Below are positions 1 through 24,029 of a stretch of 64,000 nucleotides of DNA, piece by piece (position 1 is the first letter of the stretch; each line of letters starts with the position of its first letter). Origin of the DNA: Arthrobacter sp. AFG20. Its GTDB lineage: Bacteria; Actinomycetota; Actinomycetes; Actinomycetales; Micrococcaceae. The translations under genes were made by a program, and so were the position numbers. The stretch is taken from contig NZ_PJMC01000005.1 of the NCBI RefSeq assembly GCF_002892795.1, positions 124,001 to 188,000 of the forward strand, given 5' to 3'. The notes below the pieces were generated by a model. It saw nothing but the letters and a program-made list of their open reading frames with translations, did no database searches and had not been told where the DNA came from.

Positions 1-335
1 CTATGGTCCAGGGCCTCCAATGCATCTTCGACGTGCCGCGATGTGTCGGTGGCGATGATCACCACGTCCAGTTCGGTTTCGGGGTACGAGGTGACCAATT
101 CTACGGAGGCAGGAATATCGCTCCGCCCGGCAAGGCTTGCGGTCGGACGGACGGGGAGTGCGAAGATATCGTCGACACCCATCCCCGCGAGCACCCGCAA
201 ATGCCGGGCGCCAATGGAGCCAGTGCCCCTCACGAGAGCCGATGTCCTGCGCCCTCCCTCCGGCTTCCCGGCCAATCGTGCAGAAGGCACCGGAGCCAAG
301 GCCGGAGAGACATCCAAGTATGATGTGAGCGTCAT
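1..335 (-). CDS. Gfo/Idh/MocA-family NAD(P)-dependent oxidoreductase, 3' part outside the window
   Basis: Only the N-terminal 111 codons are present; the reading frame is still open at base 1. The translation contains GTGSIGARHLRVL followed by a DVVIIATDTSRH segment. This is the Rossmann dinucleotide-binding start typical of Gfo/Idh/MocA sugar dehydrogenases. The start is taken at the ATG at 335, which leaves about 35 residues before the glycine motif, longer than usual for the family, so the true start may lie further in. It diverges from the nonulosonate gene cluster with only 37 bases between starts. Campylobacter legionaminate loci also carry oxidoreductases of uncertain role, so a link to the pathway is possible but inferred. 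Confidence 0.75.
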   Translation of the reverse strand, partial: MTLTSYLDVSPALAPVPSARLAGKPEGGRRTSALVRGTGSIGARHLRVLAGMGVDDIFALPVRPTASLAGRSDIPASVELVTSYPETELDVVIIATDTSRHVEDALEALDH

Positions 336-372
336 CTGCTCAACTCTATTGCTCAAGGCGCCGCTACTCTAA

Positions 373-1422
373 ATGGATATCCAGAATCACTACTATGGTC
401 ACTCTGCGGCATTCGCGCACCATTGCGGGATGAACAGGATCCATCACATTTCGGGCTTGGTACAGCACGGATGGACGGTCAAATCGCCCGTCCTGGCCCA
501 GTTTGCAGACTTCAACGACCGCGGTGCCAACCGGAAACGGCTGGTCTGGACATCGGCGTCGCGGGGATACTCGCCCGAAGGGCCAGAGAACCTTTTCCCG
601 GACGGATCCAGCATGATCACCGCCGTCGGGGCCCCTTTCCTCTACCTCCAGAAAGCCGTGCAGGACAAGGACGGGCTGCCGGAGCGTACGCTCGGGCCCC
701 TCGTGCTGCCTCTCCACGGAACAGCACTGGTGAAAGTCAGCGGCGACCACGACGGGTTCGCGCGGGAGGTCCTCCGTCGTGACGGGCCTGCCACGGTGTG
801 CCTCCATATCGAAGACCTCGAGCACCCTGAGATCTACAGTGCCTGGACGGACGCGGGGCACCACGTCATCAGCGCAGGAGACCGCCGGGACCCGCAGTTT
901 CTGGGACGGATCCTCTGGATGATGGCTTCTGCGCAGAAGGTGGTCTCGAACCGCATGTCCACGGCCCTCCTTTACGCCGCAGCTGCAGGCGCGGACGTGG
1001 AGGTCTACGGGCCGGACTTCCAGCTCGGACAGAACGCGGAAACGGACCCCGGACTTCGGATGCGTGAGCTGTGGCCGGAATTCTATGGCCCGTCGCCGGA
1101 CAACGCGGAGCTCAAGCGCATAGCCGACATGGAGCTCGGTGTGCAGGACATGAAGTCGCCGGACGAGCTGAAGAGCTTGCTCGGCTGGAACAGCCGCTCC
1201 TTCGGCGCGTTCTGGGATTACTGGGCCAGCGGTCCCCTGGAAAAAGCCCAGGCGGTCCTTGGGCTGCGGAAACGCCCCGAAGGCGCCCACAGCGGCGAAG
1301 CGGGCCTTTCCCCGATCCATTTCCTCCGCCATCCGCTTAAACACCTGCCGTCCCCGCTGCCGAAACTCACGCCGGCAGTAGCCGTCGAGGCGGTCAGGCT
1401 CAAAGAGTCGGGCCGGCTCTAG
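373..1422 (+). CDS. Uncharacterised protein, possible surface-glycan glycosyltransferase
   Basis: This 349-residue protein is not one I recognise with certainty. It has no signal peptide or membrane segment. The segment VVSNRMSTALLYAAAAGADVEVYGPD (residues about 193-218) resembles the nucleotide-sugar-binding half of capsule and sialic-acid-type transferases, where a conserved SNR/T-ALLYA stretch is followed by a small sheet. The gene opens the operon: only two bases separate its stop from the GTG of the legH-like gene. First position in a nonulosonate operon makes a nonulosonate transferase or other surface-glycan role plausible. That role is inferred from context and a weak motif, not from a clear family match. 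Confidence 0.5.
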   Translation: MDIQNHYYGHSAAFAHHCGMNRIHHISGLVQHGWTVKSPVLAQFADFNDRGANRKRLVWTSASRGYSPEGPENLFPDGSSMITAVGAPFLYLQKAVQDKDGLPERTLGPLVLPLHGTALVKVSGDHDGFAREVLRRDGPATVCLHIEDLEHPEIYSAWTDAGHHVISAGDRRDPQFLGRILWMMASAQKVVSNRMSTALLYAAAAGADVEVYGPDFQLGQNAETDPGLRMRELWPEFYGPSPDNAELKRIADMELGVQDMKSPDELKSLLGWNSRSFGAFWDYWASGPLEKAQAVLGLRKRPEGAHSGEAGLSPIHFLRHPLKHLPSPLPKLTPAVAVEAVRLKESGRL

Positions 1423-1424
1423 GG

Positions 1425-2126
1425 GTGGCCGCCTGGCTGATTATTGGGGCGTCCGGGCACGCACGCAGCCTCGCGTCGATCGTGAACGGCCGGGGAGACC
1501 ACGTTGCCGCCGTTTCTGACGCGGGACTGACCGGCGCAGCCCGGGACTCCGCAACGTCGCAACGGGGCCTCAGTCCCTTCGCTGCCGCAGACGGGCGAAC
1601 TCCCACCGTGTTTGTCGACGACGACGAAGCGCTGAGGTTTGCCGCGGAAATGTCCCTGTCGATCGCCGTCGGCATAGGGGACAACGGCGTACGGAACCGC
1701 ATCGCGGAGTCAATCATCGCTTCGCCGGAGCTGGCCCCTCTCACCGGTCCATTGGTCGCGGCGAGTGCCACCGTTGATCCCACCGCCCGTCTAGGGGCCC
1801 TTGCACAGGTCTGCGAGCACGCCCACGTGGGCCCGCTGGCCGATATTGGCTTAGCGGTCATCGTCAACACAGGCGCCATTGTCGAACACGAGGCCGGGGT
1901 CGGACCCGGGACGCACATCGCCCCCGGTTCAGTGCTTTTGGGGGCCTCGTTCGTGGGCAATAGAGTATTTGTTGGGTCTGGCGCCCGCATCCTTCCCGGC
2001 TGCACCGTGGGAGGACTATCTGTGATCGGTGCGGGCGCTGTCGTGACGCGTGATCTCGCCGGGGGAGCAACCTACATTGGTGTTCCGGCCCGGGAACTCA
2101 TATCCAAGAAAGGCGCAACTCCGTGA
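1425..2126 (+). CDS. legH: NeuD/PglD-type sugar O/N-acetyltransferase (LegH-like)
   Basis: The 233-residue product begins with a Rossmann-like half (LIIGASGHARSLASIV) and continues with a left-handed beta-helix of hexapeptide repeats over roughly residues 100-225. Late turns are visible as GSVLLGASFVGNRVFVGSGA and VIGAGAVVTRDLAGG, ending in GVPAREL. This is the NeuD/PglD architecture. In legionaminic-acid synthesis LegH acetylates the 4-amino group of the GDP-linked 4-amino-sugar made by LegC, and the neighbours support that step. The start is a GTG two bases after the preceding stop. The stop overlaps the GTG of the next gene, so translation is probably coupled. A NeuD-type sialate O-acetyltransferase is the alternative. 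Confidence 0.82.
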   Translation: MAAWLIIGASGHARSLASIVNGRGDHVAAVSDAGLTGAARDSATSQRGLSPFAAADGRTPTVFVDDDEALRFAAEMSLSIAVGIGDNGVRNRIAESIIASPELAPLTGPLVAASATVDPTARLGALAQVCEHAHVGPLADIGLAVIVNTGAIVEHEAGVGPGTHIAPGSVLLGASFVGNRVFVGSGARILPGCTVGGLSVIGAGAVVTRDLAGGATYIGVPARELISKKGATP

Positions 2127-3175
2127 CCATCGAATCCAAAGCCCAGCATGTGACGTTCGGTCCGCATCGCATCGGCCCTGCCGAGGAAATTTTCGTCATC
2201 GCCGAGGCCGGAGTGAACCATGACGGTGACGTCACAGTTGCCCATGAACTGATCGACATGGCGGCCGACACGGGTGCCAACGCGGTGAAGTTCCAGACCT
2301 TTAAGCCTGAGTCACTGGTCACGGAAGCTGCAGACACCACGCCGTACCAGAAAAAGGCCGGGTTCGCCGAGTCCCAGTCTGAGATGCTGAGGCGCCTGAC
2401 GCTGCCCGAGACCGCCTGGGTTGAGCTGCGGGATCACTGTTCCGAGCGGGGGATCACCTTCCTCTCCACACCCTTTGACTACGACAGCGCACGGATGCTG
2501 GCGGATATCGGTGTTCCGGGACTAAAGATCGGCTCCGGAGAGCTGACCAACACCCCTTATCTGGCCGCGATCGCCGAATTCGGCATTCCGATGATCGTAT
2601 CCACGGGAATGGGAACCCGGGAAGAGATCGCCGCGGCGCTCGAGGCGACGGCCAAAGCGCCCGCGACCGTCCTGCTGCACTGCGTCTCTGCCTACCCCGC
2701 ACCCTTGGACGAGGCCAACCTGCTCGCCATCCCCGCTATGCGGAAGGAATTCGGCGTCGAGGTCGGCTGGTCCGACCACACGCCGGGCTCCCTGACGGCC
2801 ATCGCGGCCACGGCCCTGGGGTCGACGCTGCTGGAAAAGCACATCACCACCGATAAGACACGCAACGGTCCGGACCACTCCGCGTCGCTTGAGCGGGACG
2901 AGTTCGAGGACTACGTGCGCTCCGTCCGTGACGTCTACCGGGCGCTGGGTGACGGCAACAAGCGCAGGATGCCCAGCGAGGAAGCCAATGCCGGACTGGT
3001 GCGGCGCTCCTTCCACGCCGTACGGGACATCGCAGCGGGTGCCGTGATCACGGAGGACGACGTCGCCATCCTCCGCCCGGAGGGCGGACTCCGGCCGTCG
3101 GCACAGGTTGTGGGCCGCTCGGCAGGCCGCGCCGTGAAGGCCGGAACGCCAATGACCGCCGAGGACCTGGCCTGA
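2123..3175 (+). CDS. legI: NeuB-family nonulosonic acid synthase, probably legionaminic acid synthase
   Basis: NeuB-family enzymes condense a 6-carbon amino sugar with phosphoenolpyruvate. The 350-residue protein shows the NeuB barrel: EAGVNHDGD, KFQTFKPESL, KIGSGELTNTPYL, STGMGTREEI, LLHCVSAYPAP, GWSDHTPG and LEKHITTDK. A C-terminal SAF (antifreeze-like) domain spans about residues 290-350. The GTG start overlaps the legH stop. The family alone does not distinguish sialic, legionaminic and pseudaminic acid synthases. The GDP-sugar enzymes downstream (PtmE, LegB, LegC) make legionaminic acid the best prediction, with 2,4-diacetamido-2,4,6-trideoxymannose as the expected substrate. Confidence 0.9.
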   Translation: MTIESKAQHVTFGPHRIGPAEEIFVIAEAGVNHDGDVTVAHELIDMAADTGANAVKFQTFKPESLVTEAADTTPYQKKAGFAESQSEMLRRLTLPETAWVELRDHCSERGITFLSTPFDYDSARMLADIGVPGLKIGSGELTNTPYLAAIAEFGIPMIVSTGMGTREEIAAALEATAKAPATVLLHCVSAYPAPLDEANLLAIPAMRKEFGVEVGWSDHTPGSLTAIAATALGSTLLEKHITTDKTRNGPDHSASLERDEFEDYVRSVRDVYRALGDGNKRRMPSEEANAGLVRRSFHAVRDIAAGAVITEDDVAILRPEGGLRPSAQVVGRSAGRAVKAGTPMTAEDLA

Positions 3176-3176
3176 C

Positions 3177-4331
3177 GTGCTGGTACTGGGTTTTGTAGGT
3201 ACGCGGGCGGATCTCTTCCCACTCGCCCCGGTCCTGGTCCAGCTGGCCGGAAATCCTGACGTGGAGTTGCACGTAGCAACTGCCGTCGGGTTCCCGGCCG
3301 GGACAGCAGCCAGCCGGCTTGCTGAGGCAGGACTCCAGGACGGTGCGTTCGTGCATCATGACCTGGGGCTCCACCTCGATGATGCATCCGCCCAGGGCCA
3401 GCTGGCGCTGGGCCCGAAGCTGTCCGGGAGCATGGCCGACCTGATTCAGCGGAGCCAGCCAGACGCCGTCGTTGTTCTTGGCGACCGGTGGGAGCTGCTC
3501 TATGTTGTACCGTCCGTTGTTGTTTCAGGCGTGAGGCTGGTGCATCTCCATGGCGGGGAAGTCACTGAAGGGGCACTCGATGAGCGCGTCCGGCACGCTG
3601 TGACCAAGCTGGCGGACCAGCACTGCGTGAGTACGGCCGGGGCCGCGCGCCGGGTTGCCCAGCTTGGCGAATCGCCGGAACGGATTCACCAGACAGGCGC
3701 CCCCGGGCTCGACCGGTTCAGGAAGCCGAATCCACTGACAGATGACGAGTTCCACGCAGAGTTTGGCCGGCCCCTGATCCGTCCGCTGCTGATGGTCACG
3801 TACCACCCGCCCACAGCCGAGATGGCCGGGAACGCCGGTGCCTTGGCACGCCAGGTGTTCGACGAGTCCATTGGAGCGGCAGGCACAGTGATTCTGACGT
3901 ATCCGGGCTTCGACGCCGGGCGCAACGAAATCGTGGCCGAACTTGAGGCGATTGCCGCCGGCGGCACCGCGATCGTACGGGAGAGCCTGGGGCCGCTTTA
4001 TCCCCGTGTCATGGCCACCATCGATGCCCTGGTGGGGAATTCCTCCTCGGGAATTCTTGAGGCTGCAACCTTTTCCGTGCCGGTCGTCAACGTCGGAGAC
4101 CGGCAAAAGGGGCGCGAAAGCGGCGCCAACGTCATCCACTGCCGCGACGAGCGTCCGGGGATCCACGCTAGTATTGAAAAGGCTTTGAGCGCGGAGTTCC
4201 AGGAATTGGCCCGTCACGTGGTCAATCCGTATGGGGACTCGCATTCGTCAAAACGGATCGAGCGCGTAGTGGTTGGCAGCGGACGGACGCCGCTAACCAA
4301 GGCCTTCATTGACATCGGCGCTGGAGAATGA
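3177..4331 (+). CDS. legG: Hydrolysing nucleotide-sugar 2-epimerase (NeuC/LegG type)
   Basis: The 384-residue GT-B-fold protein opens with GFVGTRADLFPLAPVL. It carries VVVLGDRWELL near residue 100, HLHGGEVTEGALDERVRHA near 125 and VGNSSSGILEA near 285. These match NeuC-type hydrolysing 2-epimerases, which invert C2 and release the nucleotide. LegG uses the GDP-linked 2,4-diacetamido sugar and yields the free manno sugar for LegI. The GTG start follows the legI stop by one base, and the last codons overlap the ATG of the next gene. Substrate assignment rests on the operon. Family membership is clear. Confidence 0.88.
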   Translation: MLVLGFVGTRADLFPLAPVLVQLAGNPDVELHVATAVGFPAGTAASRLAEAGLQDGAFVHHDLGLHLDDASAQGQLALGPKLSGSMADLIQRSQPDAVVVLGDRWELLYVVPSVVVSGVRLVHLHGGEVTEGALDERVRHAVTKLADQHCVSTAGAARRVAQLGESPERIHQTGAPGLDRFRKPNPLTDDEFHAEFGRPLIRPLLMVTYHPPTAEMAGNAGALARQVFDESIGAAGTVILTYPGFDAGRNEIVAELEAIAAGGTAIVRESLGPLYPRVMATIDALVGNSSSGILEAATFSVPVVNVGDRQKGRESGANVIHCRDERPGIHASIEKALSAEFQELARHVVNPYGDSHSSKRIERVVVGSGRTPLTKAFIDIGAGE

Positions 4332-5395
4332 CACGTATGAGTACTGACGGCCCCCTCGGCAACGTCTGCATCGGGCAGGACGCCACCGTAAGGCAGGCGC
4401 TGGAGACTATCGACCGCGGCGCGTCCGCGATAGCCCTCGTCACCGACGAGTCGGGCAAGCTCCAGGGAGTGCTTACCGACGGCGATATCCGTCGCGGCCT
4501 GCTCAAGGGGGCCGAACTCGACGGACTCGTCCACGAGTACGCCAACCGGGCACCGCACGTCGTCGGGCCCGATGCCACCCGCGCCTCCGTGCTGGACCTG
4601 ATGCGCAGCCTGCGTATCAGCGAAGTTCCCGTGGTGGATGATTCCGGCAAGCTCATCGGGTTGCACACCCTCAACGACATTGTCGGCCGGTCGTCCCTGA
4701 GCAATATTGCCGTCATCATGGCCGGAGGCAAGGGCACGCGTCTGGGCGCGCTGACCAAGGACACCCCGAAGCCACTGATGACCGTGGCCGACCGGACCAT
4801 CATCGAGTGGATCATCCTCGGGCTGGTGGAATCGGGCGTCACGAACATCTATGTCTCGGTGGCGTATCTGGCCGAAAAAATCATGGCCCACCTGGGCGAC
4901 GGCTCGCGGCTCGGCTGCAAGATCAAGTATCTGCATGAGGACCCGGCGAAGCCCCTCAACACCGCCGGTGCGCTGGGGCTGCTCCACCACGAGCGGCCTG
5001 ACATTTCCGAGCCGGTGCTTGTCACCAACGCCGATCTCATGGTGCGCTATTCGGCAGCGGAGCTTCTCGCCTTCCACGCGTCCAAGAACGCGAGCGTGAC
5101 CGTTGCTGCCCGGCCGTACGTCCACCAGGTGCCTTTCGGCGTCCTGGACATCGGTGAGGGGCGGTCAATCTCCGCTGTGGTGGAGAAACCGAGCATCGAA
5201 TTCGAAATCAGCACGGGCATTTACGCAGTGTCGCCTGAGGCGCTCGCGCTGGTGCCGTACCTTGAACCTTTTTCCATGCCGGAACTCGTTCAGGCCTGCA
5301 TCGAGCAGTCCAAGACAGTGGCCGCATGGCCGATCGAATCCGATTGGATCGACGTCGGAACTCCCAAAGACCTAGCAACAGCGAAAGGCCAGTGA
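4328..5395 (+). CDS. ptmE: CBS-domain sugar-1-phosphate nucleotidyltransferase (PtmE-like)
   Basis: The protein has 355 residues. The first 125 form a pair of CBS domains (VTDESGKLQGVLTDGDIRRG and VVDDSGKLIGLHTLNDI). A nucleotidyltransferase domain follows, with MAGGKGTRLGALT near residue 131 and LVTNADLMVRY near 235. This order is that of Campylobacter PtmE, which makes GDP-glucosamine from glucosamine-1-phosphate and so commits the sugar to the GDP route of legionaminic acid. The CBS pair suggests allosteric control by a nucleotide. The first ATG overlaps the legG stop. A second ATG at 4337 sits better behind the GGAG at 4323 and may be the real start. The nucleotide used (GDP) is inferred. 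Confidence 0.82.
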   Translation: MTRMSTDGPLGNVCIGQDATVRQALETIDRGASAIALVTDESGKLQGVLTDGDIRRGLLKGAELDGLVHEYANRAPHVVGPDATRASVLDLMRSLRISEVPVVDDSGKLIGLHTLNDIVGRSSLSNIAVIMAGGKGTRLGALTKDTPKPLMTVADRTIIEWIILGLVESGVTNIYVSVAYLAEKIMAHLGDGSRLGCKIKYLHEDPAKPLNTAGALGLLHHERPDISEPVLVTNADLMVRYSAAELLAFHASKNASVTVAARPYVHQVPFGVLDIGEGRSISAVVEKPSIEFEISTGIYAVSPEALALVPYLEPFSMPELVQACIEQSKTVAAWPIESDWIDVGTPKDLATAKGQ

Positions 5396-6408
5396 TCACC
5401 TTGATTCAGCAGAACCTAACGGGCAAGACCGTGGTTGTTACGGGCGCCGACGGCTTCATTGGAAGCCACGTCACCCAGCGGCTGATCGCACAGGGCGCCA
5501 ACGTGCGGGCCCTTTGCGTCTACAACTCCAACGGTTCCTACGGGTGGCTTGATGACCTGAGCCCCGAAGAGCGTGACTCCGTCGATCTGCGCCTCGGCGA
5601 CATCCGCGACGCGGAATACGTCTCCGATCTGGTTGCCGGTTCGGACGTTGTCCTCCACCTTGCGGCCCTCATTGCGATTCCCTACTCCTACGAGGCACCC
5701 CGCTCGTACGTGGAGACAAATGTCGTGGGCACGCTGAACGTCCTCGAGGGCGTGCGCCGCCACAACGTGCCGAGGCTGGTGAACACCTCCACGTCCGAGG
5801 TCTACGGCACCCCCAAGACCGTGCCGATCACCATCGAAAACGAGCTCCGCGGCCAGTCCCCGTACAGCGCGACGAAGATCGCCGCCGACAAGCTCTGCGA
5901 GGCATGGGCGAGCTCCTTCGAGACTCCCGTCGTGGTGCTGCGCCCGTTCAACACCTACGGTCCCCGGCAGTCCGCACGTGCCGTGATCCCCACGGTTCTG
6001 CAGCAGATGGTTGCCGGCGCCGACAAGATCCACCTCGGCTCGCTGACCCCCCGCCGCGACTTCACTTATGTCACTGACACTGCCGACGGATTCCTGAAGG
6101 CAGCCAGCGCGGACATCCCGCTGGAGGGCCAGGTCATCCAGCTCGGCACCGGCTATGACGTCTCCATCGGGGAACTCGTTGAAATGGCCCGCAAGGTCAC
6201 CGGATCGACGGCGGAAATCATCACCCAGGACGAGCGCGTCCGCCCGGAAGCCAGCGAAGTCATGCACCTTCTGTCGGATCCGTCGCAGGCACTGGCCGAA
6301 CTGGGCTGGGCCCCGCAGGTCAGCCTCGAAGAGGGCCTGCGCGAATCCGCCGAGTGGATCAAGGCCCGCGGTGTGGACCTGTCCGCGGCCGCTCGATACT
6401 CCCGTTAA
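5392..6408 (+). CDS. legB: NAD-dependent nucleotide-sugar 4,6-dehydratase (LegB-like)
   Basis: This 338-residue extended short-chain dehydrogenase converts a GDP-HexNAc to its 4-keto-6-deoxy form. Visible features are VVVTGADGFIGSHV (NAD site, residues about 12-25), NTSTSEVYGTP, the catalytic YSATK near residue 158 and RPFNTYGPRQSARAVIP. The GTG at 5392 overlaps the ptmE stop and leaves a normal-length N-terminus, so I prefer it to the in-frame ATG at 5326 inside ptmE. Its place between the nucleotidyltransferase and the aminotransferase matches step two of the legionaminate route. Confidence 0.88.
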   Translation: MITLIQQNLTGKTVVVTGADGFIGSHVTQRLIAQGANVRALCVYNSNGSYGWLDDLSPEERDSVDLRLGDIRDAEYVSDLVAGSDVVLHLAALIAIPYSYEAPRSYVETNVVGTLNVLEGVRRHNVPRLVNTSTSEVYGTPKTVPITIENELRGQSPYSATKIAADKLCEAWASSFETPVVVLRPFNTYGPRQSARAVIPTVLQQMVAGADKIHLGSLTPRRDFTYVTDTADGFLKAASADIPLEGQVIQLGTGYDVSIGELVEMARKVTGSTAEIITQDERVRPEASEVMHLLSDPSQALAELGWAPQVSLEEGLRESAEWIKARGVDLSAAARYSR

Positions 6409-6429
6409 GTTTTGCCAGAAAGGTCAATT

Positions 6430-7584
6430 GTGGCGAGCCGTATCCCACTAGCTGTACCCAATATCGGCGAGCGTGAAGCCGAACTCGTAAACGAGGCCGT
6501 CGCCAGCGGGTTTGTCTCTTCCGTGGGGCAGTTCGTCTCAGAATTCGAGCAGAAGTTCGCTGACTACGTCGGCGCGAAGCACGCCGTGGCGTGCGCTTCG
6601 GGAACTGCGGCGCTGCACATTGCGATGCGCCTCGCCGACGTTCAGCCGGGGGACCTGGTTGCCGTGTCGGACTTCACCTTCATGGCAAGCTCCAATGCGG
6701 CGTCCTACCAGTTCGCCGACCTGCTTCTGGTGGACTCGCTGGCCGAGACCTGGTGCATGGACGTTGAAAGCCTGCGCCGGGAGATTGAGCGCAGGACGGC
6801 GGCGGGGGAGAAGCTGCCCAAGGCCATCGAGATCGTGCATATCCTGGGCCAGCCCGCCGATGCCCTTGCCGCGCGGGAACTTGCGGATGAATACGGCATC
6901 ATCCTGATCGAAGATGCTGCCGAGGCCCTCGGCGCTATGTGGACCGAGGGGCCGCTGGAAGGCCGCCACGTCGGGACGGTCGGCCACATGGGCGCGTTCT
7001 CGTTCAACGGAAACAAGATCATGACCACCGGTGGCGGCGGGATGTTCACCACCGACGATCCTGAACTGGCGGCGAAGGCGAAGCACCTGTCGACGCAGGC
7101 CCGGCTCCCGGACCGCGGCTACCTGCATGACGAGATTGGCTTCAACTACCGGCTAACCAATATCGCCGCGGCCCTCGGGGTGGCACAGCTCGAGCGCCTG
7201 GACGGGTTTGTTGCCACCAAGCGCAAAATCGCGGCACGCTACGCTGACGCCTTTGCCGGTAGCGGCATCCAGACACCTCCCAACCTTCCCGGGCAGGAGT
7301 CCACGTACTGGCTGTACTCGGTGCTCGTCCCTGCATCGCGTGGTGCCGGGGCACGGGACGAACTGCAGGACTTCCTGGCGGAGGTCAACATCGAATCGCG
7401 TTCCCTGTGGCGGCCGCTGCACATGCAGCCGCCCCTGAAGGATGAACTGACCCTCGACGGCGCCACCGGTGAAGACCTGTTCGCCCGCGGCCTTTCGCTC
7501 CCTTGCTCGACTGACCTTACGGATGACGACCAGGATCGGGTCATCGAGCGTGTCCACGAATGGCTACGACTCAGCGGTGAGTAG
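6430..7584 (+). CDS. legC: PLP-dependent sugar aminotransferase, DegT/DnrJ/EryC1 family (LegC-like)
   Basis: The 384-residue aminotransferase has the substrate-side start IPLAVPNIGEREAELV, CASGTAALHIA, LIEDAAEALGA and the cofactor lysine in FSFNGNKIMTTGGGG (Lys near 196). LegC aminates C4 of the 4-keto-6-deoxy sugar made by LegB. The GTG at 6430 is preferred to the TTG at 6412 because GAAAGG lies about 7 bases before it. The gene ends a run of six pathway genes, and the flippase frame begins at or just after its stop. Confidence 0.88.
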   Translation: MASRIPLAVPNIGEREAELVNEAVASGFVSSVGQFVSEFEQKFADYVGAKHAVACASGTAALHIAMRLADVQPGDLVAVSDFTFMASSNAASYQFADLLLVDSLAETWCMDVESLRREIERRTAAGEKLPKAIEIVHILGQPADALAARELADEYGIILIEDAAEALGAMWTEGPLEGRHVGTVGHMGAFSFNGNKIMTTGGGGMFTTDDPELAAKAKHLSTQARLPDRGYLHDEIGFNYRLTNIAAALGVAQLERLDGFVATKRKIAARYADAFAGSGIQTPPNLPGQESTYWLYSVLVPASRGAGARDELQDFLAEVNIESRSLWRPLHMQPPLKDELTLDGATGEDLFARGLSLPCSTDLTDDDQDRVIERVHEWLRLSGE

Positions 7585-7627: not shown

Positions 7628-9013
7628 ATGGAAAGAACTGGCAGGAACTCCATCCTGTATCTGGCCGGCGCGCTCATGCAGGGCCTGGGCATCTTCCTGG
7701 TGCAGCCTTTCGCCCTGCGTGTGCTCAACAACGATGCCGAGTGGCAGGAACTCTTCCTGGCCGTCTCGGTCATCCAGGTCGGTGTGGTGCTCGGAGCCGC
7801 AGGGCTTCCGCTGGCGATCACCAAGACGTGGTTCGACCACAACGGCGCCGCCAAGGCACGCTCGATCAGCGGCTTCCTCAGCCTGTTCGGCGCGGTTGTT
7901 GGCATCCTCGCGGCAGCCGTGTACTGGTGGCTGGCGCGCGGCAGCGAAGGAACATTCAGCTTTACCATTGCGCTCCTGACCATGGGCCTGCTGGCCACCG
8001 TGTTGGCCGCCCAAGCCCTGCTGCGGGCGCAGGGGCGTCCGGTGGCTTTTGTCCTGCTGAGTCTTGGTTCATCCGTGGCCGCCTACGGCGTGGGCCTCGT
8101 TGCGATGCTCCTGGTGGGTGCTTCGGCCAGTGTCTTCATGATGGGCTTCGGCGCCGCTGTCTGCCTGACGGCCCTTGCGGCGCTGTTCGTCGCCCCGCCG
8201 TTACAGCCTTTCACGGTGCCGGGCGCCGCGAAGGAGGCGCTGCTTATTGGCTTCCCCGTGCTTCCGCATACGGGATCAATGATGCTCCTCACCCAGGGGG
8301 CGGCCTTTCTCTTGGCGGCTGTGGCAGCGGAGGGCGTCTCCGGCGACTACGGCAAGGTGCAGATCTTTGTGCTGGGAACGGTGACGTTGCTGGGCGCACT
8401 GAACAACGCCTGGGTGCCGGCGATCATGTCGGCGAAGCCGGATGAGCGGCCGGAACGCATGCGTTCAGTGATGAAGACCGCAAGTTTCGCCGGCCTGGCG
8501 ATCGTCGTGGTGGCGAGCGGCGGGGCCAACGTGGTGACCCATGTCATGGCCGTTGGACGGGAAGACCTGATTCCGGTGGCGCAGATCATGCCTCTAATCG
8601 CCCTAGGGTACCTGCTGTACCTGAATGCCTCCTCGCTGCTGTTCGCCGACAAGGTGACGTGGATTTTGGCGGTAGTGACGCCGTCGGTGCTGGTCATTTC
8701 AGCCCTGGCGGCCCTCTGGCCGGCGTCTAACGGGAACCTGGTGCTCATGGCTGCAACTTCTGCTGGGTCGTTTTTCCTGCTGGGCGGCGTCTACTTTCTG
8801 GTGGCACGACGACGGGCCCCCGGCGGGTGGCCGATGCGCACCTATGCGCTGTGCTGTCTTGCCGCGGTCGTGTATGTCATGGTGCTCTTGATGGTGCCCC
8901 GGGACATCGTGTCCGGCATCATCACGGCAGGCGTGTTGGCCGTGGCATCGGTGTGTGGACTTGCACTATGGCACCGGCGCAGGGCAAAGCGGACGGGAGA
9001 GGCTTCACAATGA
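7628..9013 (+). CDS. Wzx-like oligosaccharide flippase (MOP/MATE superfamily)
   Basis: The product is about 461 residues and almost wholly hydrophobic, with 12-14 predicted membrane helices. It opens SILYLAGALMQGLGIFLVQP, the usual start of polysaccharide flippases, and has charged loops at spacing typical of Wzx/RfbX. It should move a lipid-linked glycan repeat across the membrane. I chose the ATG at 7628, behind GGGGA. A GTG at 7577 that overlaps the legC stop is the alternative and would add 17 residues. The gene ends in ATGA overlap with the acyltransferase. Position directly after the nonulosonate genes suggests it exports a nonulosonate-bearing glycan. Confidence 0.82.
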   Translation: MERTGRNSILYLAGALMQGLGIFLVQPFALRVLNNDAEWQELFLAVSVIQVGVVLGAAGLPLAITKTWFDHNGAAKARSISGFLSLFGAVVGILAAAVYWWLARGSEGTFSFTIALLTMGLLATVLAAQALLRAQGRPVAFVLLSLGSSVAAYGVGLVAMLLVGASASVFMMGFGAAVCLTALAALFVAPPLQPFTVPGAAKEALLIGFPVLPHTGSMMLLTQGAAFLLAAVAAEGVSGDYGKVQIFVLGTVTLLGALNNAWVPAIMSAKPDERPERMRSVMKTASFAGLAIVVVASGGANVVTHVMAVGREDLIPVAQIMPLIALGYLLYLNASSLLFADKVTWILAVVTPSVLVISALAALWPASNGNLVLMAATSAGSFFLLGGVYFLVARRRAPGGWPMRTYALCCLAAVVYVMVLLMVPRDIVSGIITAGVLAVASVCGLALWHRRRAKRTGEASQ

Positions 9014-10233
9014 CTGGCACCAGCAGCCTGGAAACTCCTGCGCAGCCAAAGACGGCCACGGAACACAAGGAGGCAAAGCCCGCACCGCGGACCATTGTCT
9101 TCTTCGACTTCGCCCGTGGCATTTCTGCACAGGCCGTCGTGCTGGGCCATGCACTCAACATCTTCCTGCCGGGCATCTTCATGGTCCCCGGACAGCGCGT
9201 CTTCTACATCCAGTCCTTCGCCGTGGTGATTTTCTTCGTCCTCTCGGGGTATTTGATCACCAGTGCCGTGCTCAAGAAACGGAGCCATGCAGGGTTTACG
9301 TTCGGTACCTACCTTCTGGACCGGGTCGCGCGGGTTGTCTACCCCCTCCTGCCGGCCGTTGCACTGATCGTTGCTTTTGATTTCCTCGTGTTCCAGGGTT
9401 CCAGGCGCCTGCCCTTCATCACTATCGATCTCAGTCCCCAGGCGATTGCCGGCAGTTTCACGATGCTGTTCAACCATCCGGTGCTCCAGGAGGTCGCCGT
9501 CAGGACCTCGACCACTTGGATCGACGTCGGTCCCGTGGGGACGGGCGCACCGCTCTGGTCCGTGACGGCCGAATGGTGGATCTATGTGGCGTTTGGGATC
9601 CTGGCGCTTACTGTGCTGAGCGGCAAGCGGATGGGGATACTGCGGGTGGCCCTGCTGTTGTTCGCCATCGCCGTCCCCGTCGGTTACATGGCCCACGGAT
9701 CCTACGAATCGCTGGCCTGGATCATCGGCATGCTCTACGCCATCGCGGCTCCAACCCTGCGGAGAATGCGCGTATCGGCGCACCTGTGGCTCTTTGGCCT
9801 GGCTTCTGCCGTGTTCGCGGCGGGCCTTCACTACACCGGGCAAAACCTCCACGCCGCCGTGACGGTCGCGGCGTCGGCTGTCGCGTTCTGCCACCTGTTC
9901 CTTGCGCTGGAAGGAAGGGCCGCAGGTGCCGCCGACAGCTCTGCCCGCGGCAGGCTTCGGGCATCTGCCAGCAAGTGGTTCGATTCCGGCAGCATCTTCC
10001 TGTCCAGTTTCAGTTACTCCCTATACCTCGTGCACTTCTCTGTGATTACGTACATCTGGTTCTACCTGCACTCAGTCCTATCAGCTTGGCAGCTCATTCT
10101 GCTGTCGCTGGTCATCTGTAACCTTCTCGCCTATGCCTACTACCTCCTGGTCGAGCGCCACTTCCACAAGGTCGGTAAATGGCTTAAAAGGCACCTGCTG
10201 CCGCCCAAAAAAGAGGAAGCGGCGGCGCGCTAG
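9010..10233 (+). CDS. Acyltransferase-3 family membrane protein
   Basis: The 407-residue protein has a 35-residue polar N-terminus rich in Ala, Pro and Lys. It then shows the acyltransferase-3 signature: FFDFARGISAQAVVLGHALN with the family's catalytic-type histidine, a VIFFVLSGYLITSAVLKK segment and about ten membrane helices. Members transfer acetyl or other acyl groups to exported sugars. The ATG at 9010 overlaps the flippase stop, so it belongs to the same operon and may decorate the glycan made there. The sugar target is not visible from sequence. The C-terminus is lysine-rich and cytosolic. Confidence 0.85.
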   Translation: MTGTSSLETPAQPKTATEHKEAKPAPRTIVFFDFARGISAQAVVLGHALNIFLPGIFMVPGQRVFYIQSFAVVIFFVLSGYLITSAVLKKRSHAGFTFGTYLLDRVARVVYPLLPAVALIVAFDFLVFQGSRRLPFITIDLSPQAIAGSFTMLFNHPVLQEVAVRTSTTWIDVGPVGTGAPLWSVTAEWWIYVAFGILALTVLSGKRMGILRVALLLFAIAVPVGYMAHGSYESLAWIIGMLYAIAAPTLRRMRVSAHLWLFGLASAVFAAGLHYTGQNLHAAVTVAASAVAFCHLFLALEGRAAGAADSSARGRLRASASKWFDSGSIFLSSFSYSLYLVHFSVITYIWFYLHSVLSAWQLILLSLVICNLLAYAYYLLVERHFHKVGKWLKRHLLPPKKEEAAAR

Positions 10234-10316: not shown

Positions 10317-12272
10317 TCACCTGCGTTTGACAGTGACTCCGCTGAAGCTGTAGGTGATGGATCCACCCTGGAACGGCACCTCGCGGTAGCCGTTGTACTG
10401 TACGGCTACCCCGAGGGGATACCCGAGACCGCCACCCTGCCAGCCCGCCTTGCCCCAGGCTGACCAGTAGGGTTCACCGACCATGTTTGCGCCGGTTGCG
10501 GCGGTGTAGTAGCTCGTGGCCCGTTCGAACGGCTGATAGCAGCCACCGCCGTAAAGTCCACATTTCGCAGGTCCAGTCGGGTAGCCGACGCCCGCCTGCC
10601 AGCCAGCCCACTGCCACGATCTGAAGTAGGCCCCAAAAACGGCATGGGCGCCGGTAGCGGGGGAGAAGTAGACGTTGGCCTTTTGGAAGGGCTGGTAGCA
10701 ACCACCACCATAAAGCCCGCAAGCAGTCGGGCCGGTCGGATAGCCAAGACCCTGCTGCCAGCCTGATTCCTTCCATGCATCCCAGTACGAACCGGTCACT
10801 GCATGGGCCCCGGTGGATGCCGAGAAGTAGATGTTGCCCTTCTGGAAGGGCTGGTAGCAGCCACCGTCGTACAGGCCGCAGGAAGCCGTCGCGGTCGGGT
10901 ATCCGATTCCTTGTTGCCAGCCTGCAGCTTTCCATGCGGACATGTAGCTGTTGGTCACGGCAAAAGTACCCGCGACAGGAGTGGCATAGACAATGCCGCC
11001 CTGGAATTTCTGGTGGCATGTTGTGGAGGCCGGCGCCCCATAGGGGCAGGTGACATCGCTCGTAGGGTAACCGATGCCGCTCTGCCAGCGCGCCGCACCC
11101 CAAGCCTTCCAATAGCTGCCCGTGACAGGATGTGCACCAGTTGCGCTGGTCCAGTAGATGTTGCCGCCCGCATAGGACCGGTAGCATCCGCCGCCTACCA
11201 GGTTGCAGATGTCGGACTTGGAGACTGCCGCTCCAAGGCTTCCTGAGGCTCCGCCCAATGACAGCCACTTCCGCTCGATTGCGCCTGCAGAGTCCACACC
11301 GTTCCTGGCAAAGGTCTGCAGCTGTGCGTAGTTGCCGTTCCAGACATTCGAGTCGCCTGCAAAGGGCCCGCTTGGGCTAAACTGCCAGATACTGTACTGG
11401 CTCCAGCTGGATGGGATAGGCCCGGCGTTGTCGGTCGCGGCGGTTGGGTAGTTGGCCACCCACAAGGGATAGTCGCCGAAACCGACGGCATCATTGGTGC
11501 ACTGCTTCCACCAATTTGTGTTCGTGTAAATGACGGGCAGCCGTCCGGTCAACGACCGCATGGTGTTGCCAAAGTCCCGGACCCACGTGGCCAGCTGCTG
11601 AGGCGTCCTGTCATAGCAGGTGTTTCCGTGGTAAAAGCCGTTGATGGTCTGGCCTGCGTAAGGGTTGAATTCGAAGTCCAGCACTGGGGGCATGGTGTAG
11701 CCGTCACCCGACCAGCCACCGCCGTTTGCCACGAAGAAGCGGGCCTGGTCAGCACCAGAGGAGGCGTTGGGGATGGCGAAGTGATAGGCGCCGCGAATCA
11801 TGCCTGCGTTGCGGGCTCCCAGATATTGTGAAGAGAAGCTGCCGCTGATGAAGTAATTGCCTTCGGTGGCTTTCACATATGCAAAGCGCGAGCCCATGTT
11901 CCATTGCTGTTGCCAGTTCACGGCGCCTTGGTGGCTGCTGACATCCTGGCCCTTGACGCCAAAGGACGGGACCCATGTAGCTTCTGTTGCAGCATCCCGC
12001 CGCGACTGCACGGCAAGCGGATTGCCTTGGCCCATCTGCGCGCCGTCTGCGCCTACCGCTGCCCGCATCGCGGCCTTCGCTGCTTCGGAATCGAGTTCGG
12101 TGCCCGGGGCAGGCTCCACGGGGGCGCTTGTTTCGCCTGCGGTGGCAGGCGGCGGTGATTCCACGGCTGAAGCCGGAACTGGCACCCCAAAACCCGCAAG
12201 AACCACGAGGGCGAAAAGGCCAGCGCTGAACGGGCCAACAGTCCTACGCCGTGCAGTTATGGTCATTGTCAT
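10317..12272 (-). CDS. Secreted GH25 lysozyme (muramidase) with LGFP repeats
   Basis: The 651-residue protein starts with a basic stretch and hydrophobic core ending PVPASA (signal peptide about residues 1-36), then an Ala/Pro/Glu-rich linker. A GH25 muramidase domain covers about residues 105-310: GQDVSSHQG, FAYVKATEG, GAYHFA, PVLDFEFN and YPLWVANY, with the Asp/Glu residues used by this family. The remaining 330 residues are about six LGFP-type repeats. GH25 enzymes cut MurNAc-GlcNAc bonds. LGFP repeats are thought to attach proteins to the actinobacterial wall. It is transcribed toward the acyltransferase gene, 83 bases apart. A role in wall turnover is likely. Confidence 0.93.
   Translation of the reverse strand: MTMTITARRRTVGPFSAGLFALVVLAGFGVPVPASAVESPPPATAGETSAPVEPAPGTELDSEAAKAAMRAAVGADGAQMGQGNPLAVQSRRDAATEATWVPSFGVKGQDVSSHQGAVNWQQQWNMGSRFAYVKATEGNYFISGSFSSQYLGARNAGMIRGAYHFAIPNASSGADQARFFVANGGGWSGDGYTMPPVLDFEFNPYAGQTINGFYHGNTCYDRTPQQLATWVRDFGNTMRSLTGRLPVIYTNTNWWKQCTNDAVGFGDYPLWVANYPTAATDNAGPIPSSWSQYSIWQFSPSGPFAGDSNVWNGNYAQLQTFARNGVDSAGAIERKWLSLGGASGSLGAAVSKSDICNLVGGGCYRSYAGGNIYWTSATGAHPVTGSYWKAWGAARWQSGIGYPTSDVTCPYGAPASTTCHQKFQGGIVYATPVAGTFAVTNSYMSAWKAAGWQQGIGYPTATASCGLYDGGCYQPFQKGNIYFSASTGAHAVTGSYWDAWKESGWQQGLGYPTGPTACGLYGGGCYQPFQKANVYFSPATGAHAVFGAYFRSWQWAGWQAGVGYPTGPAKCGLYGGGCYQPFERATSYYTAATGANMVGEPYWSAWGKAGWQGGGLGYPLGVAVQYNGYREVPFQGGSITYSFSGVTVKRR
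10330..11280 (-). repeat. About six tandem LGFP repeats in the lysozyme C-terminus
   Basis: Units of about 50-54 residues recur, each with a G-Y-W-x-A-W segment, a W-Q-x-G-x-GYP segment and an aromatic strand such as GNIYFS. Four central units also hold a C-G-L-Y-x-G-G-C-Y-Q-P-F type loop with two cysteines, which could form a disulfide after export. The DNA of the central units is similar enough to be visible as near repeats. Confidence 0.85.
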
Positions 12273-13708: not shown

Positions 13709-14932
13709 ATGGATGCAGTACGCATTGTCGAGGATGAAGTCCGGGAGCTGATTCGTCGGCGGGGTCTCGATCCGTTGCACCAGACGGCCGAGGTCAGGCG
13801 GCTCGTGGAAGCGGCCGTGACTGACTATGACGAGCGCGCCCTCATGGGGCCGCTCCCGCCGTTGGGGCCCCTGGAGTCAGCACGCCGGTTTGTCTTTGAT
13901 GCGGTGGCCGGGTTCGGTGCCCTCCAACCGTTTCTGGATGATCCGGGCATCGAGGAAATCTGGATCAACGCGCCCACTGAAATCTACATCGCCCGGAACG
14001 GCGAATCTGAACTCACATCCCTGACCCTGACGGACCAGCAGGTCCGGGACCTCGTTGAGCGGATGCTGAAGAGCTCGGGCCGGCGGCTGGACATCTCATC
14101 ACCCTTCGTGGACGCAGCTCTGCCTGACGGATCCCGCCTGCACGTGGTCATCCCGGACGTCACCAGACGCCACTGGGCGGTCAACATCCGTAAGTTCGTC
14201 GTGAAGGCGAGCCGGCTGGATCATCTCGTGGAACTGGGCACACTGACCCCTCAGTCCGGGCGCTTCCTTGGCGCCGCTGTCGCGAGCGGACTCAACATAC
14301 TGGTGTCAGGCGCGACGCAGGCGGGGAAGACCACGCTGCTGAACTGCCTAGCAGCCAGCATAGGCAGCCGCGAGCGCGTCATTACGGTCGAGGAGATCTT
14401 CGAACTGCAGTTTCCGCTGCGCGATGTGGTCGGGCTCCAATGCCGGCAGCCGAACCTCGAAGGCGAAGGCGAGATACCGCTCCGCAGGCTGGTCAAGGAA
14501 GCCCTCCGGATGCGGCCCGACCGCCTGGTGGTGGGCGAGGTCCGCGAAGCAGAGAGCCTCGACATGCTGATCGCCCTCAACAGCGGGCTTCCGGGGATGT
14601 GCACCGTCCATGCCAATTCAGCCCACGACGCCGTGACCAAGATGTGCACTTTGCCGCTGCTCGCCGGGGACAACATTTCCAGCGCGTTTGTGGTTCCGAC
14701 TGTGGCCTCGTGCATCGATCTGGTGGTTCACTGCAGCCGCCTTGCCAACGGGCGGAGGCAGGTGACCGAAATTCTCTCCCTGGGCAGGCGGGTCGAGAAC
14801 GGAATTATCGAGTCCTCAATGATTTTCTCGACGACCGGCGGCCTGCTGGAACCGACGGCCAACACAATGCCGGCGGAGGAGAAATTCGCCAGAGCCGGTT
14901 ATGAGGTCGCGGCACTCCTGGACCCGCGCTGA
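13709..14932 (+). CDS. cpaF: Tad/Flp pilus assembly ATPase CpaF (TadA)
   Basis: The 407-residue cytosolic secretion ATPase powers assembly of Flp-type pili. An N-terminal all-alpha part precedes FGALQPFLDDPGIEEIWIN. The ATPase core has the Walker A motif SGATQAGKTT (near residue 205), the Asp-box region VEEIFELQ, the Walker B-like RPDRLVVGEVRE, and the TVHANSAHDA His box. The Asp-box reads EE rather than the usual ED, a conservative change. It is the first gene of a seven-gene operon and its stop overlaps the tadB ATG by one base. The CpaE/Ssd-like ATPase that often precedes cpaF in actinobacteria is not here. Confidence 0.93.
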   Translation: MDAVRIVEDEVRELIRRRGLDPLHQTAEVRRLVEAAVTDYDERALMGPLPPLGPLESARRFVFDAVAGFGALQPFLDDPGIEEIWINAPTEIYIARNGESELTSLTLTDQQVRDLVERMLKSSGRRLDISSPFVDAALPDGSRLHVVIPDVTRRHWAVNIRKFVVKASRLDHLVELGTLTPQSGRFLGAAVASGLNILVSGATQAGKTTLLNCLAASIGSRERVITVEEIFELQFPLRDVVGLQCRQPNLEGEGEIPLRRLVKEALRMRPDRLVVGEVREAESLDMLIALNSGLPGMCTVHANSAHDAVTKMCTLPLLAGDNISSAFVVPTVASCIDLVVHCSRLANGRRQVTEILSLGRRVENGIIESSMIFSTTGGLLEPTANTMPAEEKFARAGYEVAALLDPR

Positions 14933-23660: not shown

Positions 23661-24029
23661 GGGGATGATCGGTTTCGACGATGTTAGTCGCGACAGGTGA
23701 AGCGGGCCGAGGATGCAGAATTATCTCGTAAACGCTGTCTGCAAACCAATAAGTGCCGAATCTAAGCGCACTGACTTCGCTCTTGCTGCCTAAGCAGTAA
23801 GACAGTCCGTCAGCCCGAGGTTGCTATCGCCCCGGATCCTGGCGTCATTTAGATAGCCACTGCTGTTTGCTCCCGTCATCGGAGTAAACGGGACTTTTAG
23901 ATGACTGGGCCCGGATCAGCCGCCTGTTTGCAGGACGGCTGGGGCCGAGAAATTCCGACGCAAACTGCGCCCGGAGAAGCCCTGACAACACGACATCGGA
24001 CGGGGGTTCAATTCCCCCCATCTCCACTA
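23661..24029 (+). ncRNA. ssrA: Transfer-messenger RNA (tmRNA)
   Basis: The 5' end GGGGATGATCGGTTTCGACG and the 3' end with GGGGGTTCAATTCCCCC T-arm and CATCTCC pair as a seven-base acceptor stem. The CCA is not encoded exactly (ACTA), so the 3' boundary is uncertain by a few bases. The tag frame runs from GCC at 23755 to TAA at 23791-23793 and reads AESKRTDFALAA. The resume codon is inferred from the ALAA ending and from actinobacterial tags. The RNA rescues stalled ribosomes with SmpB. A TATGAT at 23595 may be its -10 box. Confidence 0.96.

Follow-up and report, generated by a model that had tools for sequence, protein, structure and literature searches.

Gene content of the locus

The window analyzed here, a 64,000-nucleotide stretch of the Arthrobacter sp. 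AFG20 genome (contig NZ_PJMC01000005.1, positions 124001-188000), opens with a single plus-strand operon of nine genes that fills its first 10.2 kb (Table 1). Six of them, in tight consecutive order on bases 1425-7584, resemble LegH, LegI, LegG, PtmE, LegB and LegC of legionaminic acid (Leg) biosynthesis. The first-pass annotation had named these six coupled genes, and family scans support the assignment. The genes overlap by 4 bases at the LegH/LegI, LegG/PtmE and PtmE/LegB joints, and the other joints from open reading frame 1 (ORF1) to LegC are gaps of 1 to 3 bases. The interval originally given, 373-7584, holds for the six named genes from base 1425 onward, but bases 373-1422 belong to a seventh, unnamed gene without a family match, ORF1. 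The LegB start was taken as the GTG at 5392, inside the overlap with the PtmE stop, where the open reading frame listing has 5326 instead. The widest gap in the operon (16 or 43 bases, depending on the start chosen) lies ahead of the Wzx-like gene, whose stop is overlapped by the ATG of the acyltransferase-3 gene.

Table 1. Features at the left edge of the window (negative positions lie left of base 1)
Feature	Position	Strand	Basis and remarks
Short-chain dehydrogenase/reductase (SDR) oxidoreductase	~-2405..-1611, outside window	-	PF13561 139.4 bits
LegF, CMP-sugar synthetase	~-1614..-793 (contig 122386-123207)	-	PF02348 71.8 bits
Gfo/Idh/MocA-type oxidoreductase, 5' part	1..356, on to ~-750	-	Weak PF01408 match, 28 bits; start codon uncertain
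ORF1, candidate CMP-nonulosonate (legionaminate) glycosyltransferase	373..1422	+	349 residues; uncatalogued family
LegH-like NeuD/PglD-family sugar N-acyltransferase	1425..2126	+	TIGR03570 136.5 bits, 8.4e-40; PglD_N and hexapeptide repeats
LegI-like NeuB-family nonulosonate synthase	2123..3175	+	TIGR03569 1.1e-113; PF03102; C-terminal SAF domain, PF08666
LegG-like NeuC-family hydrolyzing nucleoside diphosphate (NDP)-sugar 2-epimerase	3177..4331	+	TIGR03568 283.1 bits, cut-off 235.9
PtmE-like CBS-domain nucleotidyltransferase, presumed guanylyltransferase	4328..5395	+	Two CBS stretches and NTP_transferase (Pfam)
LegB-like NAD-dependent 4,6-dehydratase	5392..6408	+	TIGR04180 412.5 bits, 8.2e-124
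LegC-like pyridoxal phosphate aminotransferase	6412..7584	+	TTG start; TIGR04181 379.7 bits, 1.2e-113; PF01041
Wzx/MATE-like membrane protein, candidate flippase	7628..9013 (start 7628 or 7601)	+	Position and hydrophobic sequence
Acyltransferase-3 (OafA-like), last gene of operon	9010..10233	+	PF01757 3.4e-20
GH25 muramidase with LGFP repeats, convergent neighbor outside the claimed pathway	10317..12272	-	PF01183, PF08310

The window's left edge cuts the cluster. The first-pass annotation had reported the cytidine monophosphate (CMP)-sugar synthetase as absent from the window and suggested a search for LegF left of base 1; the gene was found there on the minus strand, 0.8 kb away, with CMP-N-acetylneuraminate synthetases as its best PDB matches. 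The enzyme is thus outside the window but not missing from the cluster, and the pathway gene set, first described as near-complete, is complete by homology once LegF is included. The Gfo/Idh, LegF and SDR genes form one group divergent from the Leg operon, and the adjoining SDR and LegF genes recall what we take to be the ptmA-ptmB arrangement of Campylobacter jejuni. Farther left lie genes for a GT2 glycosyltransferase, a DUF6541 protein, an ABC-2 type exporter (called Wzm/Wzt), a GlfT2-type galactofuranosyltransferase and UDP-galactopyranose mutase (Glf). Close to these glycan genes, at L004 3754-7941, is a gene for a large protein that is presumably FtsK/EccC-like.

Probable assignment to a legionaminate pathway

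The identity of the cluster was examined by comparing each gene with competing family models. LegB scored 412.5 bits against TIGR04180 and 59.4 bits against PseB, LegC scored 379.7 bits against TIGR04181 and 257.8 bits against PseC, and LegI scored 379.6 bits against NeuB_NnaB and 264.1 bits against PseI (NCBIfam models). The PtmE name comes from the Pfam architecture, the NCBIfam answer containing no PtmE model, and the closest PDB match of this protein is mannose-1-phosphate guanyltransferase beta, followed by UTP-glucose-1-phosphate uridylyltransferase. We consider it very likely that the cluster is a Leg-type pathway encoded on the Arthrobacter chromosome. The earlier preference for Leg over sialic acid is thus supported by the better fit of LegB and LegC to Leg-type than to pseudaminic acid (Pse)-type models, by the NeuB and NeuC homologues in the operon and by the adjacent CMP-sugar synthetase. 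Weighing against this assignment, four of the five genes with Leg/Neu models fall below the curated NCBIfam cut-offs (LegH, 136.5 against 160.8; LegI, 379.6 against 399.65; LegB, 412.5 against 475; LegC, 379.7 against 420), and LegG alone exceeds its own. The Leg assignments therefore lean on best match and context.

It is unlikely, though worth weighing, that the cluster makes another nonulosonate, namely N-acetylneuraminic acid (Neu5Ac), Pse, or a Leg isomer or derivative, for instance an 8-epimer or an N-formyl form. The best model for LegI is N-acetylneuraminate synthase, the Gfo/Idh and SDR genes that accompany LegF have no assigned role, and the acyl donor of LegH is not established. Against these points stand the wide margins of the LegB and LegC models over PseB and PseC, and NCBIfam and Pfam scans of the nine operon genes found no additional sugar epimerase. 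Neu5Ac synthesis needs no LegB, LegC or PtmE, which counts against that sugar in particular.

The step assignments below are modeled on the Campylobacter pathway, and we infer the order of the steps. PtmE would convert GlcN(Ac)-1-phosphate, that is, glucosamine 1-phosphate or its N-acetyl form, to an NDP-sugar, probably linked to guanosine diphosphate (GDP); the GDP-linked route is read from the CBS-type nucleotidyltransferase and would depend on that enzyme's specificity. LegB would then dehydrate the NDP-sugar, LegC would aminate C4 and LegH would N-acylate the product. By hydrolysis and epimerization, LegG would release a free 2,4-diamido-mannose analogue, which LegI would condense with phosphoenolpyruvate and LegF would convert to the CMP-sugar. 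Judged from the sequences, the product would be CMP-legionaminic acid, either N,N'-diacetyllegionaminic acid (Leg5Ac7Ac) or a close derivative. The acyltransferase-3 may O-acylate this product and the Wzx-like protein, which had no family match in Pfam or NCBIfam scans, may export it. ORF1 is the likely transferase installing legionaminate.

Conservation of the gene cluster

The nine genes encoding LegH, LegI, LegG, PtmE, LegB, LegC, LegF, the Wzx-like protein and ORF1 were all present in each of seven Arthrobacter-family loci (six named Arthrobacter and G264, of another genus in the same family). Gene order was conserved in all seven, with the Wzx-like homologue always directly 3' of LegC. 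LegB is 100% identical to the copy of Arthrobacter pascens DSM 20545, and the LegB proteins of five other Arthrobacter strains share 88 to 91% identity with ours; for ORF1, identity with the A. pascens copy is 97%. The organism is A. pascens or a very near relative. An acyltransferase-3 homologue occurred in five of the six named Arthrobacter loci. The SDR and Gfo/Idh genes likewise accompanied LegF in five of the six, as well as in G248 and G115, and were not found in the stretch of G264 that was examined. The cluster was seen in four genomes of other genera in total: besides G264, the pathway set occurred with a divergent Gfo/Idh-LegF-SDR block in G248 and G115 (both of one other family) and in a different gene order in G194 (a third family). 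The Leg reading gains support from this conservation, seen in all seven same-family loci and in three clusters belonging to two further families. Within the genus the distribution is patchy, with ORF1 in 3 of 37 same-genus genomes, our own included (59 genomes searched).

Among 297 genomes of the order, eight carry a LegB homologue scoring 411 to 463 bits (the next score is 223), and five of these eight have the full Leg set. The other three (G156, G170 and G114) have LegB scores above that of our protein, and the 20-kb stretches examined there contain no NeuB, a further point against reading Leg from these genes. LegB alone was consequently rejected as a marker of Leg. The LegB, LegC and PtmE genes could in principle belong to another deoxyamino-sugar pathway, bacillosamine-like or of a natural product, with NeuB and NeuC as neighbors by chance, and in these three genomes LegB does stand beside a nucleotidyltransferase. 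We regard this explanation as highly improbable for our locus, where the genes form one operon with 4-base overlaps and where gene order is kept throughout the seven family loci. As a separate observation, the homologues of about 450 bits adjoining nucleotidyltransferases in these genomes (L048-L050) perhaps point to LegB serving in some other sugar pathway.

Comparison with known pathways

The pathway itself is of an established type, found here in a new setting. The CMP-legionaminate pathway of C. jejuni uses the GDP route (Schoenhofen 2009, as cited in PMC7439481, PMC6137143 and PMC7371886), and a 12,939-genome survey detected this route in 93 of its 96 C. jejuni genomes (PMC7725333). The first-pass description of the route as known chiefly from Campylobacter and Legionella is partly right: Leg is also made through a uridine diphosphate (UDP) route by Bacillus subtilis for its spores (PMC7439481), and its biosynthesis was reported in a haloarchaeon (PMC6137143). 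As in C. jejuni, PtmE-, LegB-, LegC-, LegH-, LegG-, LegI- and LegF-like genes are all present here, a likeness at the level of family models. Unlike C. jejuni, the Arthrobacter locus consists of an operon and a divergent operon in an actinobacterium without a flagellin match; it also includes the Gfo/Idh oxidoreductase, the Wzx-like protein, the acyltransferase-3 and ORF1, and no Maf-type model was found among the genes scanned. The sps pathway of B. subtilis is similar in that the organism is Gram positive and its Leg is on a nonflagellar surface, but it is UDP-linked, serves the spore crust and has in place of LegB the dehydratase SpsM, whose predicted structure is close to CapE/WbjB/PseB (PMC7439481). 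In Streptomyces coelicolor, a teichulosonic acid wall polymer (PMC7831098, PMC13011467) likewise places a nonulosonate in an actinobacterial wall, but as 3-deoxy-D-glycero-D-galacto-nonulosonic acid (Kdn) and not as a 5,7-diamino sugar. By title and abstract opening, no report of legionaminate in Arthrobacter appeared in the legionaminic, nonulosonic or sialic acid literature searched, subscription carbohydrate journals being mostly outside the scope of this search.

The ORF1 family and its association with NeuB

ORF1, a soluble-looking protein, matched nothing in Pfam (none at E ≤ 1), NCBIfam or PDB sequences, and a profile search of the PDB gave the same result. The idea that ORF1 could be LegH or some other enzyme of the Leg pathway was rejected, since no such match appeared in the NCBIfam and Pfam scans. 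When 394 genomes of the class were searched with a profile of seven Arthrobacter proteins, 15 had ORF1 relatives; one of these, the match in G656, a weak fragment (E = 4.2e-4) with three in-frame stops, was dropped before counting. Each of the 14 usable matches, our own genome included, shares its contig with a NeuB-family synthase that lies between 0.8 and 14.8 kb away. Strong NeuB homologues (best E of about 1e-36 or lower) occur in 120 of the 394 genomes, a count made by eye from the search table and then repeated, and the tally at E ≤ 0.001 is 216. The hypergeometric probability of finding NeuB in all 14 by chance is 3.4e-8 on the base of 120 and 1.8e-4 on the base of 216, or 1.1e-7 and 3.3e-4 with our own genome removed, with genomes treated as independent and the 394 taken as the same set in both searches (all 14 genome labels occur in both). 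Adjacency by chance is even less likely than presence alone. When the wider alignment A2 was used to search 396 genomes sampled across the phylum, five matches were obtained, two of them new. One of these (G1000) is 8.4 kb from NeuB; over both surveys, 15 of the 16 genomes with a family member have a NeuB-type synthase no more than 15 kb away from it.

The 15 genomes with this association comprise two Leg clusters (our own and G115) and apparently 13 Pse clusters. Family models were run on the neighbors at five distant ORF1 loci, with some scores under the curated cut-offs: L070 and L077 have PseB, PseC and PseI, L074 has PseB and PseI, L069 has PseI (partial), and L079 has a weak aminotransferase match alone (PseC, 192.8 bits). 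The remaining loci carry LegB, LegC and LegI relatives with similar Pse-like scores and are unclassified. Among the motifs invariant across the 13 rows of A2, from which L076 and L079 were omitted (L079 as too divergent), are YGH, QHG, GxP and PxH. No ORF1 relative was found in the viral contigs searched. As sequence neighborhoods suggest, the ORF1 family is tied to legionaminate and pseudaminate clusters and is likely the novelty at this locus. In G085, another ORF1-family protein, strongly diverged (L072:13578-14960, 92 bits), is encoded about 4 kb from the first, which suggests duplication in the cluster.

Predicted function of ORF1

We give slightly better than even chances to ORF1 being the transferase of legionaminate. 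The broader proposal is evenly balanced: that ORF1 founds a new actinobacterial family of CMP-nonulosonate glycosyltransferases, replacing known transferases such as PF07388 and Maf in both Leg and Pse clusters, and that it attaches Leg to an Arthrobacter surface glycan, perhaps one built on galactofuranose. A plausible but less favored explanation is that ORF1 serves the nonulosonate branch as some other enzyme, such as a modifier of CMP-Leg or CMP-Pse or of the finished glycan. Its lack of detectable homology to any known family, the weak fold evidence and the existence of Leg clusters without it all fit that explanation. A transferase is favored in turn by the occurrence of ORF1 in both Leg and Pse clusters, whose shared chemistry is the CMP-5,7-diamido-nonulosonate. 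In addition, the GT2 gene beside our cluster was seen in only one of the six named loci (within the flanks examined), and the weak structure matches are mostly nucleotide-sugar GT-B enzymes, including a polysialyltransferase, with unrelated proteins listed too.

These structure matches come from an AlphaFold model built with seven sequences (60 to 97% identical). Many top Foldseek rows were GT-B enzymes, all at E ≥ 2.2e-3 and from a low-confidence model. In VIA-align, the model reached Z scores of 8.1 with UDP-N-acetylglucosamine 2-epimerase and 7.8 and 7.7 with bacterial polysialyltransferase (for 5wc6, Z of 7.7, root mean square deviation of 5.0, 179 aligned). Several results weigh against the transferase proposal. 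The model is poor (mean predicted local distance difference test score of 48), and Foldseek returned no match at E ≤ 0.001, the best being 2.2e-3. VIA warns of Z scores under about 8, and receptor fusions and respiratory-complex chains also score about 7. In profile-profile comparison (hhalign), the probability was below 1% against 4 PF07388 and 12 PF04464 homologues. Furthermore, the complete Leg clusters of G248 and G194 have no ORF1-family member, and the second new relative from the phylum-wide sample (G892) is far from NeuB on the same contig.

ORF1 as a homologue of TagF-type enzymes or polysialyltransferases was rejected despite its TagF-like QHG motif, with hhalign values of 0.25 and 0.34 (A2). 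Among 14 other families, the highest hhalign probability was 2.1, for LegB. In a control with 20 column shuffles per set, values for TagF and LegG never reached 1, but one PF07388 shuffle gave 99, which marks this control as noisy.

Other nonulosonate transferases offer a comparison. PF07388 homologues were found in 5 of 60 genomes, all five within 9 kb of NeuB (the G336 match is weak, E = 1.5e-4), and none was found in our genome. In four large-genome relatives (families f35 and f37), a PF07388 homologue lies 1 to 4 kb from NeuB; we infer that these are Kdn clusters. Maf4 of C. jejuni is a putative Leg transferase (PMC9298399). PF07388 proteins and Maf share with ORF1 the presumed CMP-nonulosonate donor, and PF07388 also shares its gene neighborhood, but neither has a sequence match to ORF1. 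The ORF1 family thus appears to take the position that PF07388 proteins have in other genomes. Both can coexist: on contig C133 of G336 (L075, L085), an ORF1-family gene and the weak PF07388 homologue have the same NeuB no more than 9 kb away.

Destination of the sugar and implications

Flagellin was rejected as the target of the sugar, since no flagellin N-domain match was found in this genome by a search that was positive in 4 of 14 control genomes. The cluster is flanked by the galactofuranose and ABC-export genes on one side and by the muramidase on the other, and the ORF1 relative of G115 (L067) likewise adjoins Glf, GlfT2, Wzm and Wzt homologues. Because no flagellin was found and galactofuranose and ABC-export genes are nearby, our best guess for the acceptor is a cell-wall or capsular glycan, and the neighboring galactofuranose genes suggest which kind of glycan this might be.

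Decoration of flagellin or pili instead of the wall appears distinctly unlikely. A gene starting at 13709, which we take to encode a Tad-type pilus ATPase, counts for pili, and both Leg and Pse are well known as sugars of flagellin (PMC9298399, PMC7439481). The lack of a flagellin match and the galactofuranose and ABC-export genes argue against this destination, as does ORF1 itself, which matches no Pfam model and is therefore not a Maf protein; pili may still carry the sugar.

Two further observations concern the surroundings. At L008, L010, L013 and L053 the Leg cluster likewise adjoins a GH25/LGFP muramidase homologue, and the contigs of L009 and L011 end inside one. Elsewhere in the window, a transfer-messenger RNA gene at 23661-24027 encodes the tag AESKRTDFALAA.

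A complete GDP-type gene set in Arthrobacter would extend the GDP route of legionaminate synthesis to Actinobacteria, and it predicts the sugar in the walls of these bacteria. ORF1 would provide a testable candidate, in soil bacteria, for the missing enzyme that attaches the nonulosonate, and it may also be of use as an enzyme tool.

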